Below, piece after piece: positions 6,740-11,954 of a DNA stretch of 32,478 nucleotides. Source of the stretch: a virus; the IMG/VR virus record IMGVR_UViG_3300027736_000147, positions 1-32,478 of that record; one strand, given 5' to 3'. Every line of letters begins with the position of its first letter. The stretch's first letter is position 1. A program made the translations under genes and the position numbers. The notes under the pieces were generated by a model. That model was not told the origin of the DNA, did not search any database, and saw only the letters and a list, made by a program, of their open reading frames with translations.

Positions 6740-7096
6740 TTATTTATTTATCCGCAAGGCTTCTTTTAAAACGCGATTAATGTAATTTTTGTAATCCATC
6801 TTTTCGTCTTGCGACAACTTGTCAACAGCTTCAATAATTAATTGATAGTAATCATCATTGGTCATGCCTTTTTCTGGCGTAAACCAATAATCTTTGATTA
6901 CTTTTAGCCATGCCGCCGTAAAGAAAAAACACAGCACAAACGCGCCCCATTGGTTAGCTTGATAAGATGAATAAAACCAAAAAGGCTGTCCAAGCAAACC
7001 AAACACACAAGCCCACTTACGAAATTCTTTTCTTTTGTCTTGCAAAAGCCATATTGCAATTAACTCAGTAACTGCAATAAACACTTGTTCAATCAT
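6740..7096 (-). CDS. Small membrane protein with three predicted transmembrane segments
   Basis: A 118-residue protein. I chose the ATG at 7096 because it overlaps the upstream stop as ATGA and is preceded by GAGAAGG; a longer frame from 7123 would run into that gene. Hydrophobic stretches lie at about residues 4-18, 29-45 and 50-67 (GLLGQPFWFYSSYQANQWG and FVLCFFFTAAW), followed by a soluble, charged C-terminal half. Proteins with this 'GLLGQPFWFYS' core are frequent in phages but have no known role. The coding sequence is more AT-rich than the terminase. Placement between the HDVFGHG protein and terminase gives no functional clue. Confidence 0.75.
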   Translation of the reverse strand: MIEQVFIAVTELIAIWLLQDKRKEFRKWACVFGLLGQPFWFYSSYQANQWGAFVLCFFFTAAWLKVIKDYWFTPEKGMTNDDYYQLIIEAVDKLSQDEKMDYKNYINRVLKEALRINK

Positions 7097-8304
7097 TTTA
7101 AAAAACCTTCTCGCCAAGCCCATGCCGGCAAAATTCCTGTTTTTTGTTCTGCATATTCAGTAGCAATCGGACTTGCAAGTCTATTTAATTGACCGTATGG
7201 GCCAAAATTTACCCATGAATTTTGACCTCGTGTTTCTGAAGTAGCTGCTGGCAATGCTTCGGGCGAATACATTCGCGCATGAGATTGAAAAGCGTTTTCC
7301 TCACCAGCAGCCCGAAATCCAACACCATGCTTGCCATGCCCAAACACATCATGTACAGCCCTAAATACATCATTGGCAGTTACAGGTTTTCCGTTCCAAG
7401 TTTCACCAGTCCTTATAAGTAAAGGATTTGCTTCACTGGCAACAGCAGCAGATGGCCCACCAAAACCTTGCTCAGTTGGAAAAATTGATAAACGTTTATT
7501 TTGCACAATGTCATTTATGGCATTCCGAGGATTGCCATAAATATCACCACTTTCAGGCATAAAATCAAACTTATAACCTTTTTTTCTCAAAGCCTCATAT
7601 TGCGCCATTGTTTCTTCAATCATGGCGTTATAGGCTTTTTTTACTTTTGGATCATTTGGATTGTTTGCCATGCTTTCATAAGCCTGCGCCAATCTAGTTG
7701 CCCTGTTTTCATCAATCGTTGCATATTTTGTTTGCGGAGAATACACCAACCCCTTGTCTGCAACATACGATTTAGCAATATCTACCAATCGTTGATCTGT
7801 ACCAAATTGCTCCAATTTTCCACCAACATTAACAACGTCAGGCATACCTTCTAAAGTTTTGCCAACATATTTAGCTGGTGGCAAAACATTAGACGCCGTA
7901 TTGCTGCCCATAGCACCAAGCATCTCAGCGCCAAGGCCACCGCGCTCCATGATTTGCGGCACAACCTTTTCAGCCAAACGCTCACCAGCGCGGCCAACTG
8001 CCAAGGCGCTGTTGTTAAACACTTTGGCTGTTGGGCCGACCATAGGGGCAACTGCAAATGCTGCCTCCAATGCATCATTGTTGAACTTGGTTGTGCCACC
8101 CAGACCACCAGCGCCAGTTGTTAGGGGTTCGCCGTAGGACAACTTATCCAATGTCCGGCTGATGGCTGGGACTGACAAGAACTCTGCCAGTTGCTGTGCC
8201 TGCTGGGTGCGCTCCGGGCTGTAGGTGCTTGCCAATGCGTCAGACAACCGGCCAAGAAGCGCGTTGCGTGGCGTGGCCTGGATTAGGGCGTTGGGGTATG
8301 GCAT
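7093..8304 (-). CDS. Phage protein with C-terminal HDVFGHG-type domain, unknown function
   Basis: A 403-residue soluble protein. The N-terminal 150 residues are low-complexity and helical (Ala/Gly-rich), like linker parts of virion proteins. The C-terminal half carries a conserved-looking block: VTANDVFRAVHDVFGHG, then GVGFRAAGEENAFQSHARM, then ETRGQNSWVNFGPYG. The clustered His, Asp, Glu, Asn and Arg residues look like an active or metal-binding site. I recall this block from large polyvalent phage proteins (multi-domain effector-type proteins injected with DNA), but cannot name the family. Base composition changes near 7860: the part coding for the N-terminal region is GC-richer than the rest, suggesting a fusion or domain swap. 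Its stop overlaps the membrane-protein start. Confidence 0.8.
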   Translation of the reverse strand: MPYPNALIQATPRNALLGRLSDALASTYSPERTQQAQQLAEFLSVPAISRTLDKLSYGEPLTTGAGGLGGTTKFNNDALEAAFAVAPMVGPTAKVFNNSALAVGRAGERLAEKVVPQIMERGGLGAEMLGAMGSNTASNVLPPAKYVGKTLEGMPDVVNVGGKLEQFGTDQRLVDIAKSYVADKGLVYSPQTKYATIDENRATRLAQAYESMANNPNDPKVKKAYNAMIEETMAQYEALRKKGYKFDFMPESGDIYGNPRNAINDIVQNKRLSIFPTEQGFGGPSAAVASEANPLLIRTGETWNGKPVTANDVFRAVHDVFGHGKHGVGFRAAGEENAFQSHARMYSPEALPAATSETRGQNSWVNFGPYGQLNRLASPIATEYAEQKTGILPAWAWREGFLK

Positions 8305-8536: not shown

Positions 8537-9043
8537 TCACTTGGGCGTGACGTCGGTCACGTTGTCAATCGCCAGTGTCTTTACCCTTGACTGCGCCTGC
8601 TCCAGCGCATCGAGTACGCTGATACGCTCATCGCGCACGGTCATGTCAATCCGGTCGCCATACGTCCTGGGCTTCAGCTTGCTGGCGATCCACTTGCGTG
8701 CGTCCACCTGCATACGCTTCTGCTGCACCCAGGCTGACGCCATAGCGCCTTCCAAGCCCTCTGGCATCTGTTCGTCCGATAACTCCAGTATCTCGTCAGC
8801 CATGCGGTCTGCACGGTCTTGCACCGCCTTGTCGTAGGCCTGGCGCAGCTTGTCATCACTGGCAAGCATCGTTTGGAAGCTGGTCCATGTTGGAAAGCCA
8901 GGCTCACGCAGCACCGTTGACACGCTCTTGCCAGCCGAAACCTTGTCAACAATCTCCTGCCAGATTGGATCGCCAATCGGCCACTTCACAGGTCGCCCCA
9001 TGATTGCCCCTGTTTTTGTGGTCTTTTCAGCCAAAGTCTTCAC
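8537..9043 (-). CDS. Terminase small subunit, Sf6-type
   Basis: A 168-residue DNA-recognition subunit that would bind the packaging site and load the large subunit. The start is GTG at 9043, chosen because a perfect GGAGG sits 6 bases upstream; an internal ATG gives a protein 14 residues shorter. The N-terminal third (WQEIVDKVSAGKSVSTVLRE) is a helix-turn-helix of the Sf6/Nu1 style, the middle is helical, and the segment QVDARKWIASKLKPRTYGDR is characteristic of Sf6-type small subunits. Slightly longer than Sf6 gp1. It is separated from the large terminase by the DnaA-box segment and two genes. Confidence 0.88.
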   Translation of the reverse strand: MKTLAEKTTKTGAIMGRPVKWPIGDPIWQEIVDKVSAGKSVSTVLREPGFPTWTSFQTMLASDDKLRQAYDKAVQDRADRMADEILELSDEQMPEGLEGAMASAWVQQKRMQVDARKWIASKLKPRTYGDRIDMTVRDERISVLDALEQAQSRVKTLAIDNVTDVTPK

Positions 9044-9081: not shown

Positions 9082-9165
9082 TCAGCGAAATGCGCCCCCC
9101 AGCGACATTTCACCTTCACCACCCAAAAAAGTCACCAAACATCCAGTCTGGCGACAATCCCTCAT
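9082..9165 (-). CDS. Possible 27-residue mini-protein between RusA-like and terminase genes
   Basis: A short frame starting MRDCRQTGCLV and ending LGGAFR. Its ATG overlaps the RusA-like stop (ATGA at 9162-9165) and is preceded by GAGGTGAT, an excellent match to the Shine-Dalgarno consensus, which lies in the last codons of that gene. It includes two Cys and a Gly-rich stretch. The start signals are good, but the length is too short for coding statistics; it may simply be a translation-coupling relay toward the small terminase 39 bases downstream. Confidence 0.35.
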   Translation of the reverse strand: MRDCRQTGCLVTFLGGEGEMSLGGAFR

Positions 9166-9497
9166 ATCACCTCAATCTCAACCCGATAAACCTTAACCCC
9201 ATCAGAACGCTGCCTGTACTGCCAGTCCAGCCGCTTATCCCCATCATCCACACCCAACCAATCAGCCACCCCATCTCTGGTCGCCTTAAACGCTGATTGC
9301 AGATTATCCCCATCCAACGCTCTAGGAGCCACCCTAGTCAACACAATCGTGCAAGGCAAGGGGATAGGTGCGGCAACAGCACATAACGCATTAAACGCCT
9401 TCTGGCGCTGACTCTTCACCAACCTCGCCTTCACCGCCCAGTGCATCCTAATGTTCGCCACACTCACAATCTTCATGTCCACCGTTACCTCAATCAT
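9162..9497 (-). CDS. rusA-like: RusA-like Holliday-junction endonuclease
   Basis: A 111-residue protein, close to the 120 residues of E. coli RusA. The motif RALDGDNLQSAFKATRDGV (59-77) followed by GVDDGD (82-87) matches RusA's catalytic 'D.DN...K...D.L......DD' pattern; Asp62, Asp64 and Asp84/85 are the candidate metal ligands. RusA cuts four-way junctions to resolve recombination intermediates or branched replication products before packaging. The frame extends upstream through the repeat array to 9755, but the ATG at 9497 with GGGGGA just before it is the likely start. It lies between the primase-helicase and small terminase on the minus strand. Confidence 0.8.
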   Translation of the reverse strand: MIEVTVDMKIVSVANIRMHWAVKARLVKSQRQKAFNALCAVAAPIPLPCTIVLTRVAPRALDGDNLQSAFKATRDGVADWLGVDDGDKRLDWQYRQRSDGVKVYRVEIEVI

Positions 9498-9551: not shown

Positions 9552-9736
9552 GTACCGAAGGTTCGACCCGATTTTGTGTACCGAACCGAAGGGGGTATAT
9601 ATACCCCTTCGGTACGTTTCGGTACAACGAGCAAATCGGGCATCGGTACGTTTCGGTACGTTTCGGTACATCGGTACATCAATTCGGTACAGTACCGACC
9701 GTACCGATTTCGGTACGTTTCGGTACAGATCGGTAC
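9552..9736. repeat. Dense CGGTAC/GTACCG iteron-like array with central palindrome
   Basis: In 185 bases there are ten copies of CGGTAC (9610, 9620, 9644, 9654, 9664, 9672, 9685, 9711, 9721, 9731) and four of its complement GTACCG (9552, 9578, 9692, 9701). Many are exactly 10 bases apart, one helical turn, often as TTTCGGTACG. Inside lies a palindrome with arms CCGAAGGGG (9586-9594) and CCCCTTCGG (9604-9612) around a GTATATATA loop. The array fills the gap between the primase-helicase and RusA-like genes and covers the last 20 codons or so of the former. Looks like a multi-site protein-binding region: replication origin iterons, a packaging site or a regulator platform. Confidence 0.85.
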
Positions 9737-11739
9737 AACTCATTACGGAAAACAACCATGTCTTTTTTGGTTAAACCCTCCACCGATTCTTTAAACCGTC
9801 TGGCGTTCAAACCGTGGCTTTTGGCAGATTCGCGCCATTCATCGTAGTTGGCAGACACATCCATACCTTCCATGCCATCGGTCTGTTTCTTCAGTTCAAT
9901 GGCTACTAAGCAGTTCAGGGCAATCAACTGGTTACCTGGTAGCACGGTGCGCTTTTGCACGCTGCTAACCAGCCCCGAGATGTCCACGCTGGTCAGGTAC
10001 GCGCCCTTGACTGGCAAATTGTGCTTGTCCAGTATCGGCAGATCCACCTGCGTGATCTGAAAGTTCTTGGCCGCCGGCATCTCGGCATCCTTCATCTTCT
10101 TGCTCTCGAACTGGATGGTCTTGGTGCCGCTATCCAATTGGCACTTGTACTCAGCATCCAGCGCACCCTTTAGCGCCGTTGATCCCCTGCTGCGGTCCTT
10201 GTCCATCGCGCCGCTGTGGTGAACTACTAGCACGCAGCAGCGATAGTCCTGCCGCAAATAGGTATCAAGGTGCTGGATAAACGAATTCATGTCTTGGGTT
10301 GAATTCTCATCCCCGCCCATGTTCCGCGCCAGGGTGTCAATCACGATCATGGATGGGATGTGCCCGCACTCATTGCTCAAAATCTTGATTGACTCAGCCA
10401 CCAGCGCAGCCTCTGTCGCGTCATACAGTTGCGCAGCCCGATGGCTCTTGAATAAAGGCACATCCTTGAGACTCACCCCGTTACCCAGTTCCCATCCCTT
10501 GAACCGCCGCGCCAGCCCGTTGTGACCCTCACCGGCAATGTAGAACACCGCACCCTTTTGCACCTGATGCCCATGCCATGCTGTGCCGGTTGCCACGCAG
10601 CAGGCAATGTCAATGCTGACAAAAGACTTACCGCCGCCTGGATCTCCGAATACCTGCGCCAAGCTGTCTGCCTCAATGTAGTCATCAACAATCCACTTGA
10701 TTTCTGTCAGTTGAAGACTATCAGCACGGCTGAACTCAAACGCCAGCTTCTCCCGCACCGGCCCTGCCACGCGCTCGATCTGGTCCTTGACCGCATCCAG
10801 ACCTTGCAGGCAATGCAGGTCATTGAAGTCCGTTGGTTTGTTGTCAGTCATGTCAGATTCAGAGAACTTGGGATACACAATCTCGCCAAACACCAATGCC
10901 GCCGCTGCCCTGCCCTTGGTCACGCCTGGATTGCCGTCAGTGAACTGGTCATTATCCGCGCCAATGACAATGCGACTGCCAGGGAACATCTCCTTAGCCG
11001 CCTTGGCTACCTTAGCCAAGTTCCCGCAGTCAAACGCCACCAAGGTGGTATACCCCGTTGCCTCATGGATACTGGCGCAGGTTGCAAACCCCTCACCGAC
11101 AAAGATGATCTTTCGATTTCCCCTAAGTTCAAAGAACCCACCCTCAATCTTGCCGCCCTTCAAGAACCTCTTGTTGCCCTCCGCATCAATGGTTTGGTAG
11201 GACAGGATCTCACCATGTTGGTCAACCACCGGCACTACCAAACGCCCAGCACGGTCAATCTTTATCCCATGAGGCTCAATGTGCTTGCGAATTAGGTACG
11301 GATGGTCAGAACTGGCATCAGCGTAAGTGCCAACTTCATCCTCTGCCTTCTCAGCAGCTACCGCCTGGCTTGCCAACCTGTCAGCCTCCTTCTTGGCCTT
11401 CAGGTCATTCATCCACTTGTCATGCTCAAAGCGCTCAGTGAATGACATAGCCCGCCCAGTGTCAGCCACCCACTTGGCCTCAAAGGTAGGCTCCTTCCAG
11501 CATCCTGCTATACCCACCGGCACCTTGCCGCTGGTGTGCAGGATGTACCAGCCATCCAGCGCACCCTTTTTGCTTGAGACATGAGCCACTCGATGGATCT
11601 CCCCATCAGCAATGATCTCCTTGATCAGCAAACCGGACGCCTCACAGTGCGCCCGAAACGCCGCCTCTGGGTTAACTAGGTCTTGGCTCTCTATGGCCGC
11701 CGCAAAGCCGTTGGGGAAGATGCTAGATAAGTTGCTCAT
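9679..11739 (-). CDS. Toprim primase fused to RecA/AAA_25-type helicase
   Basis: A 686-residue replication protein. The N-terminal part (about 25-130) has no obvious zinc finger. A Toprim domain follows with VGEGFAT (214-220, catalytic Glu) and GADND (260-264), the acidic pair for metal-dependent primer synthesis. The C-terminal ATPase has Walker A GDPGGGKS (365-372), Walker B MIVIDT (464-469) and HHSG (507-510) typical of RepA/AAA_25-type hexameric helicases. It would prime and unwind DNA at the phage fork. The last residues (about 669-686, YRSVPKRTEIGTVGTVPN) are encoded by the CGGTAC repeat array and look non-domain. The ATG overlaps the regulator gene stop (ATGA). Confidence 0.9.
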   Translation of the reverse strand: MSNLSSIFPNGFAAAIESQDLVNPEAAFRAHCEASGLLIKEIIADGEIHRVAHVSSKKGALDGWYILHTSGKVPVGIAGCWKEPTFEAKWVADTGRAMSFTERFEHDKWMNDLKAKKEADRLASQAVAAEKAEDEVGTYADASSDHPYLIRKHIEPHGIKIDRAGRLVVPVVDQHGEILSYQTIDAEGNKRFLKGGKIEGGFFELRGNRKIIFVGEGFATCASIHEATGYTTLVAFDCGNLAKVAKAAKEMFPGSRIVIGADNDQFTDGNPGVTKGRAAAALVFGEIVYPKFSESDMTDNKPTDFNDLHCLQGLDAVKDQIERVAGPVREKLAFEFSRADSLQLTEIKWIVDDYIEADSLAQVFGDPGGGKSFVSIDIACCVATGTAWHGHQVQKGAVFYIAGEGHNGLARRFKGWELGNGVSLKDVPLFKSHRAAQLYDATEAALVAESIKILSNECGHIPSMIVIDTLARNMGGDENSTQDMNSFIQHLDTYLRQDYRCCVLVVHHSGAMDKDRSRGSTALKGALDAEYKCQLDSGTKTIQFESKKMKDAEMPAAKNFQITQVDLPILDKHNLPVKGAYLTSVDISGLVSSVQKRTVLPGNQLIALNCLVAIELKKQTDGMEGMDVSANYDEWRESAKSHGLNARRFKESVEGLTKKDMVVFRNELYRSVPKRTEIGTVGTVPN

Positions 11740-11954
11740 GCTTTCGCCCCCACCAACTCAGGCCAAATGTCAGCCCAGCTTGTAGTGCAGACCATCTTGC
11801 GAGTCACCGCCCCGTCGCTGGCCTGCTCTACCCGCACAGCCTCTGCTGCTGACATCTCACGCCTGCCGGTGAGGCATTGGTAGATGTACTGCTCATTCAT
11901 GCCGACTTTTTCTGCCAGTCGTCGGCGCTCATCTGGTGTGATTTGTGTAGTCAT
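11736..11954 (-). CDS. YdaS/Cro-like helix-turn-helix regulator
   Basis: A 72-residue DNA-binding protein. Residues 7-45 (PDERRRLAEKVGMNEQYIYQ, then CLTGRREMSAAEAVRVEQAS) form a helix-turn-helix of the YdaS_antitoxin/Cro type, and DGAVTRKMVC with WADIWPEL follow as in other phage YdaS-type proteins. It is the first gene of the leftward operon and lies beside the divergent control region. Two copies of a 17-base palindrome there are its likely operators. The ATG has no clear Shine-Dalgarno. No CI-type repressor was found in the window, so this may be the sole switch protein or one half of a pair encoded elsewhere. Confidence 0.85.
   Translation of the reverse strand: MTTQITPDERRRLAEKVGMNEQYIYQCLTGRREMSAAEAVRVEQASDGAVTRKMVCTTSWADIWPELVGAKA

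Follow-up and report, generated by a model that had tools for sequence, protein, structure and literature searches.

An iteron-like array at the end of a phage primase-helicase gene covaries with the predicted winged-helix domain of the encoded protein

Why does a phage carry a dense array of one short repeat at the end of a primase-helicase gene, and which protein reads it? The window that we analysed is a 32,478-nt virus sequence (IMG/VR record IMGVR_UViG_3300027736_000147, positions 1 to 32,478). A sequence-only reading had reported fourteen CGGTAC/GTACCG units within 185 bases, and an exact count returned 14 at 9552–9736 (10 on the plus strand, 4 on the minus strand). We annotate them as an iteron-like array of GTACCG(A) units on the minus strand, based on the hexamer count and the match of the layout with relatives. 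Roughly 0.04 copies of CGGTAC would be expected in 185 bases, which excludes chance as the source of the array; in the whole window the hexamer occurs 27 times against 7.24 expected from shuffles, the largest of which held 15. The reported 10-base spacing applies to six of the 13 start-to-start gaps; the other seven measure 7, 8, 9, 13, 24, 26 and 32 bases. Consequently only runs of units are in helical phase, and the proposal of same-face binding sites holds within such runs but not for the array as a whole.

Followed along the primase-helicase gene, the array consists of direct units from 9736 to 9711, an inverted pair (9701, 9692), seven direct units from 9685 to 9610, a palindrome and two units of inverted orientation at 9578 and 9552, so that the inverted units are grouped as originally described. 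This layout, +++--+++++++--, is also found in relatives. The palindrome at 9592–9607, GGGGTATATATACCCC, is perfect and has a TWWA core; TATATATA, previously taken for a loop, is therefore its centre. From its sequence and its enrichment in relatives, we propose that it serves as a melting or priming element. A second palindrome, CGTACCGATTTCGGTACG, at 9700–9717, is made by the head-to-head units, as judged from sequence and from the layout in relatives. The array does lie beside the primase-helicase gene, but it is not strictly intergenic, because it starts inside the last codons of that gene and extends beyond the stop at 9679. Rfam gave no match to a known structured RNA anywhere in the window, and GC skew, which is confounded by gene strand, gave no clear origin signal.

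The primase-helicase (P0001, 686 aa; 9679–11739, minus strand) contains a Toprim_3 domain (residues 212–313), an AAA_25 RecA-fold helicase domain (334–510) and a predicted C-terminal winged-helix domain (602–671; codons at 9727–9936, minus strand). The last is identified from an AlphaFold model, with pLDDT mostly around 90 across the domain, and from structural matches, the best of which include the winged helices of SAMD1 on DNA, Cdc6 and ORC. A fold common to these proteins and to a predicted model is no proof of function. The predicted recognition helix, ARRFKESVEGLTK, spans residues 646–658 (9766–9804, minus strand), and residue 645 immediately precedes it. Pfam detected no D5 or SF3 family in P0001, only AAA_25 and Toprim families, and comparison of the P0001 and P0002 sequences with solved structures returned nothing similar. 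No classical plasmid Rep initiator family was present among the neighbouring proteins scanned, and the matches from a plasmid search were all weak and partial, most of them to the primase portion of proteins from conjugative plasmids, TraC among them.

Upstream of the primase-helicase lies a gene for a 72-aa YdaS/Cro-like HTH protein (11736–11954, minus strand), identified by family searches. Downstream is a 112-aa ORF (9162–9497, minus strand) with no family match, followed by the terminase small subunit gene, terS (8537–9043, minus strand; family match). The earlier suggestion of a RusA-like downstream gene found no support in Pfam, PHROGs, NCBIfam or PDB sequence searches; only a RusA-like Asp motif is visible. 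A 403-aa protein encoded between the genes for the two terminase subunits (7093–8304, minus strand) has a weak, below-cutoff match to MATCAP, a metallopeptidase.

The sequence-only reading would have been refuted if close relatives that share the replication genes lacked the array. In our close viral set (80 loci with primase-helicases 81–95% identical), the array is present at the 3′ end of the gene in 79, and the remaining contig, L012, ends just past the gene. Each of the 79 has 11–19 copies of one hexamer within 350 bases, and these either lie right at the gene's 3′ terminus or are separated from it by inserted sequence. The unit itself varies, and all copies within a locus change in concert: the close relatives use TACCG, CACCG, AACCG, ATCCG or GTCCG. 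Despite these changes the order of direct units, head-to-head pair, direct units, palindrome and two inverted units is kept, and the offset of the array from the stop codon is constant within the close family. Same-strand gaps of 10 bases dominate in the relatives (n = 497, compared with n = 78 for the next commonest gap).

More distant relatives share the arrangement. A scan of genome contigs with P0001 alone found none, whereas an alignment query recovered them. Most of 80 prophage or MAG loci have an array with other units at the same place, as do the cultured remote phages Alteromonas PB15, Idiomarinaceae 1N2-2 and Salicola CGphi29 (~32% identity); units at remote loci include TGTCCCG, GTTACC, GGTTCA and GTTACG, among others. 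Comparing the 3′ window of 114 mostly remote loci with control windows from the same locus, we found that it exceeded 95% of its controls in 83 loci and 99% in 75, with a median hexamer count of 7 against a control mean of 3.5. A clear hexamer array was not seen in 31 of the 114, many of them from Endozoicomonas, and several of these have a palindrome. The palindrome has a conserved core of its own, mostly CTTTAG, CTATAG, CTTAAG or TATATA, and 38% of primase 3′ regions, versus 0.43% of control windows, hold a palindrome whose TWWA core is flanked by at least 5 pairs, a ~90-fold enrichment. The palindrome may be conserved in more loci than the iterons are. Seven loci (L338, L352, L366, L333, L341, L350 and L330) have palindromes ~50–250 bases beyond the primase-helicase stop, even without an evident hexamer array; these are of the type Y-rich/CTTAAG, CTATAG, CTTTAG or CTAAGG/R-rich.

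The concerted change of the unit allowed us to ask which protein it follows. Across 102 distinct close relatives (counted on 93 rows), unit class matches residues 645, 646, 647 and 650 of the primase-helicase, where the predicted recognition helix begins. Where A precedes CCG, these residues are N[AS]R(K) with TACCG, DYRK with CACCG and KSNR with AACCG; where T precedes CCG, they are [KA]NNW with ATCCG and ARNW with GTCCG. The classes CATCCGA and ATCCGGA share an ATCCG core, and L024 and L025, one member of each class, both have ANNW. One locus, L070, has Ala at 650 and breaks the part of the rule that pairs K/R with A. By column-wise mutual information, the association is spread over the whole C-terminal domain and does not single out the helix.

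As a control we used a tree of residues 1–590 of the primase-helicase. Explaining unit class on it requires 24 changes, and well-supported branches force no fewer than 12 of them. The helix changed with the unit in 6 of 6 independent pairs for Trp650 with TCCG (p = 0.03) and in 5 of 5 for Asn647 with AACCG (p = 0.06). Pairs with near-identical bodies and different units have a median identity of 52% in the C-terminal domain, compared with 91% for pairs with the same unit. In one pair, L225 and L089 are 100% identical over residues 1–590, their DNA falls to 55% over the C-terminus and array, and it returns to ~90% and more downstream. This is a cassette swap with defined bounds, comprising the winged-helix domain and the array.

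The winged helix adjoins the array, so linkage alone would keep both together in many swaps. Against an explanation by linkage only stand just two observations, of which the second is the more telling. The first comes from 16 loci in which ~0.6–1.3 kb is inserted between the stop codon and the array while the match of helix and unit is retained (L001, L018, L028, L050, L054, L057, L070, L071, L072, L079, L113, L114, L134, L147, L214 and L215). By eye, the inserts hold one or more genes, PAPS-reductase-like, methyltransferase-like and others. Since an inserted gene is only ~63–69% identical between unit classes, insert sharing does not settle linkage versus function. The spot exactly between primase-helicase stop and array is in itself a recurrent insertion site in these 16 loci.

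The second is an out-of-sample test. The pairing of Arg646 with GTCCG was seen in one close-family class and then tested on remote prophages. GTCCG is the top NNCCG word in nine remote prophages with Arg at the position of 646 (36–46% identity), from Vogesella, Halomonas, Denitrificimonas, Marinobacter, Billgrantia, Ralstonia and Lysobacter. By motif, 16 remote loci have the Arg, and those without a detectable array fall outside the test; L364, one of the 16, has a different unit, not GTCCG. The nine that obey the rule may be partly of common ancestry in the winged-helix domain. Loci with a helix of the KKKAFQR type mostly have the unit TGTCCCG, as seen by eye.

These results bear on the idea that the array is merely repeat DNA, homogenised by slippage or gene conversion with no protein bound and tied to the C-terminus by linkage only. 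Tandem 10-mers can homogenise, and the winged-helix codons are contiguous with the array and often exchanged jointly with it. We nevertheless hold this very unlikely: the layout, inverted units and palindrome included, is fixed across unit changes, the helix–unit match persists across inserted genes, and the rule carries over to remote phages. There is hardly any more room for an operator array of the YdaS/Cro-like protein, which we regard as scarcely credible even though, in the window and in several remote phages, the gene immediately upstream of the primase-helicase encodes a small HTH protein. L050 (GTACCGA) and L214 (CGTCCGG) share the same YdaS-like protein and differ in unit, so we rejected YdaS as the reader; its helix region is also nearly invariant between unit classes, and we disfavour it as the specificity determinant of the array.

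A pac site, the alternative that the sequence-only reading had left beside an origin, would be read by the terminase small subunit. Such sites are often near terS, which in the window is encoded ~0.5 kb downstream, next after one ORF. This adjacency is absent in the relative PB15, whose terS lies ~6 kb and some 15 genes from the array, and the unit tracks the C-terminus of the primase-helicase instead. We therefore reject the pac site, to which we would give next to no chance. A regulatory or copy-control role is compatible with the covariation, which tells the reader protein and not the consequence of binding: through its winged helix the primase-helicase could bind the array to hold down its own expression or the copy number while replication starts elsewhere, as at the crr site of P4, a phage that has both ori and crr sites. 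We consider this unlikely, as the array sits where the gene ends, away from the gene's promoter, a search within and beside it gave no sigma-70-like promoter, and the conserved TWWA palindrome inside it better suits strand opening.

We conclude that the array probably represents replication-origin iterons bound by the primase-helicase's own C-terminal winged helix. The array, its layout and conservation, its covariation with the protein and the cassette swaps are computational observations; binding, strand opening and origin activity are inferred from them, and the covariation of the unit with the winged-helix domain lends the original iteron or origin interpretation strong but indirect support. 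The primase-helicase would bind the GTACCGA units next to its gene through the winged helix, and multiple copies might load side by side on runs of sites spaced by 10 bp. The palindrome, with its TATA-type core, would then open or act as first template, after which the helicase ring and fused Toprim primase could unwind and prime. With two oppositely oriented units on the far side of the palindrome, loading in both directions would be possible. Winged helix and array would together form one exchangeable specificity cassette.

Parts of this arrangement are known from other replicons. In SaPI Rep and SCCmec Cch2, the initiator helicase uses its C-terminal domain to bind short iterons that immediately follow the helicase gene (PMC7581432). 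The window array likewise consists of short repeats directly downstream of the gene for a proposed initiator helicase; unlike those systems, which have a different helicase type and separate primases, the window protein is a RecA-fold AAA_25 helicase fused to a Toprim primase. The present system also differs in its units of 6–7 bp, 10-bp spacing, 10–19 copies and TWWA palindrome, and it resides in tailed phages and prophages. In Vibrio PLE, the RepA_N DNA-binding domain and ori covary and swap as a module, only cognate pairs replicate, the origin-directed nuclease Odn attacks the system, and a change of origin specificity was shown against it (PMC8263062). The phage system shares the covariation and modular exchange of initiator DNA-binding domain and repeats, but RepA_N is the other half of its protein (the conserved part is C-terminal), and PLE has three ~30-bp iterons and no helicase-primase fusion.

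The alpha protein of satellite phage P4 has a C-terminal winged helix and a helicase of the SF3 type. In this one chain, a Toprim-type primase and a helicase are combined with a DNA-binding domain for the repeats of the origin (PMC4234260). The window protein similarly unites primase, helicase and a predicted C-terminal winged helix, with adjoining repeats whose origin role is inferred; unlike alpha, it has no SF3/D5-like domain. The replication protein of the archaeal plasmid pRN1 also has a C-terminal winged helix, with the origin just downstream of the gene, and shares with the phage system a fast-changing sequence with conserved structure (PMC4234260). Its site is a large stem-loop rather than iterons, and it pairs an archaeo-eukaryotic primase with an SF3 helicase. 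Iteron plasmids and P1-type phage replicons place a Rep initiator of a classical family beside the iterons, a kind of protein absent among the neighbours scanned at the window locus. In operation the system would resemble SaPI Rep, SCCmec Cch2, P4 alpha, PLE and pRN1, yet it belongs to none of these kinds: the helicase comes from a different family and is joined to a Toprim primase.

We did not find this arrangement described for Toprim and AAA_25 phage proteins; subscription literature was mostly outside the search, so a prior description is not excluded. As a rule, DnaB-like helicases depend on an initiator and a loader that are separate proteins. If our reading is right, initiator, helicase and primase are joined in one chain. 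It seems to us an even bet that the loci form a widespread, apparently undescribed class of phage origin, in which RecA-fold (DnaB-like) helicase-primases initiate on their own, the winged helix reads 7-bp iterons by a partly legible residue-to-base rule, and cassette exchange creates origin-incompatibility groups, plausibly driven by parasites or defences. In that reading, exchange of helix and iterons as a specificity cassette splits closely related phages into such groups, and origin-targeting parasites or defences are a plausible driver. The swapped cassettes suggest selection for changed origin specificity, as shown for PLE against Odn (PMC8263062). Sequence alone could then locate the origin, with the reader protein named, in many phages and prophages for which no replication start is known. 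For the study of specificity change in winged helices, the naturally occurring matched helix/unit pairs already offer a data set.

A search for orphan arrays, as in satellites using the same origin, found none. The strongest candidate, L123, was set aside, as by eye its contig apparently stops within a primase gene adjoining the array. At that contig end (4541–4780) lie an array of CGTACC-type units and the palindrome CCCCCTTACAGGGGG, and the cut-off frame resembles a primase C-terminus of the L135/L307 type. At L199:7070–7331 (MW202711, Manatee Spring), ten GGGACA copies occur 1.4 kb past a RepA-like primase gene, beyond several small genes, and may be an array of this kind that has been displaced. 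In L341 (Halomonas sp. DQ26W), 25 copies of GCTGCC fall within 350 bases ~1.8–2.2 kb past the primase-helicase stop, separate from the TGCCGGGTT-like units directly after it.
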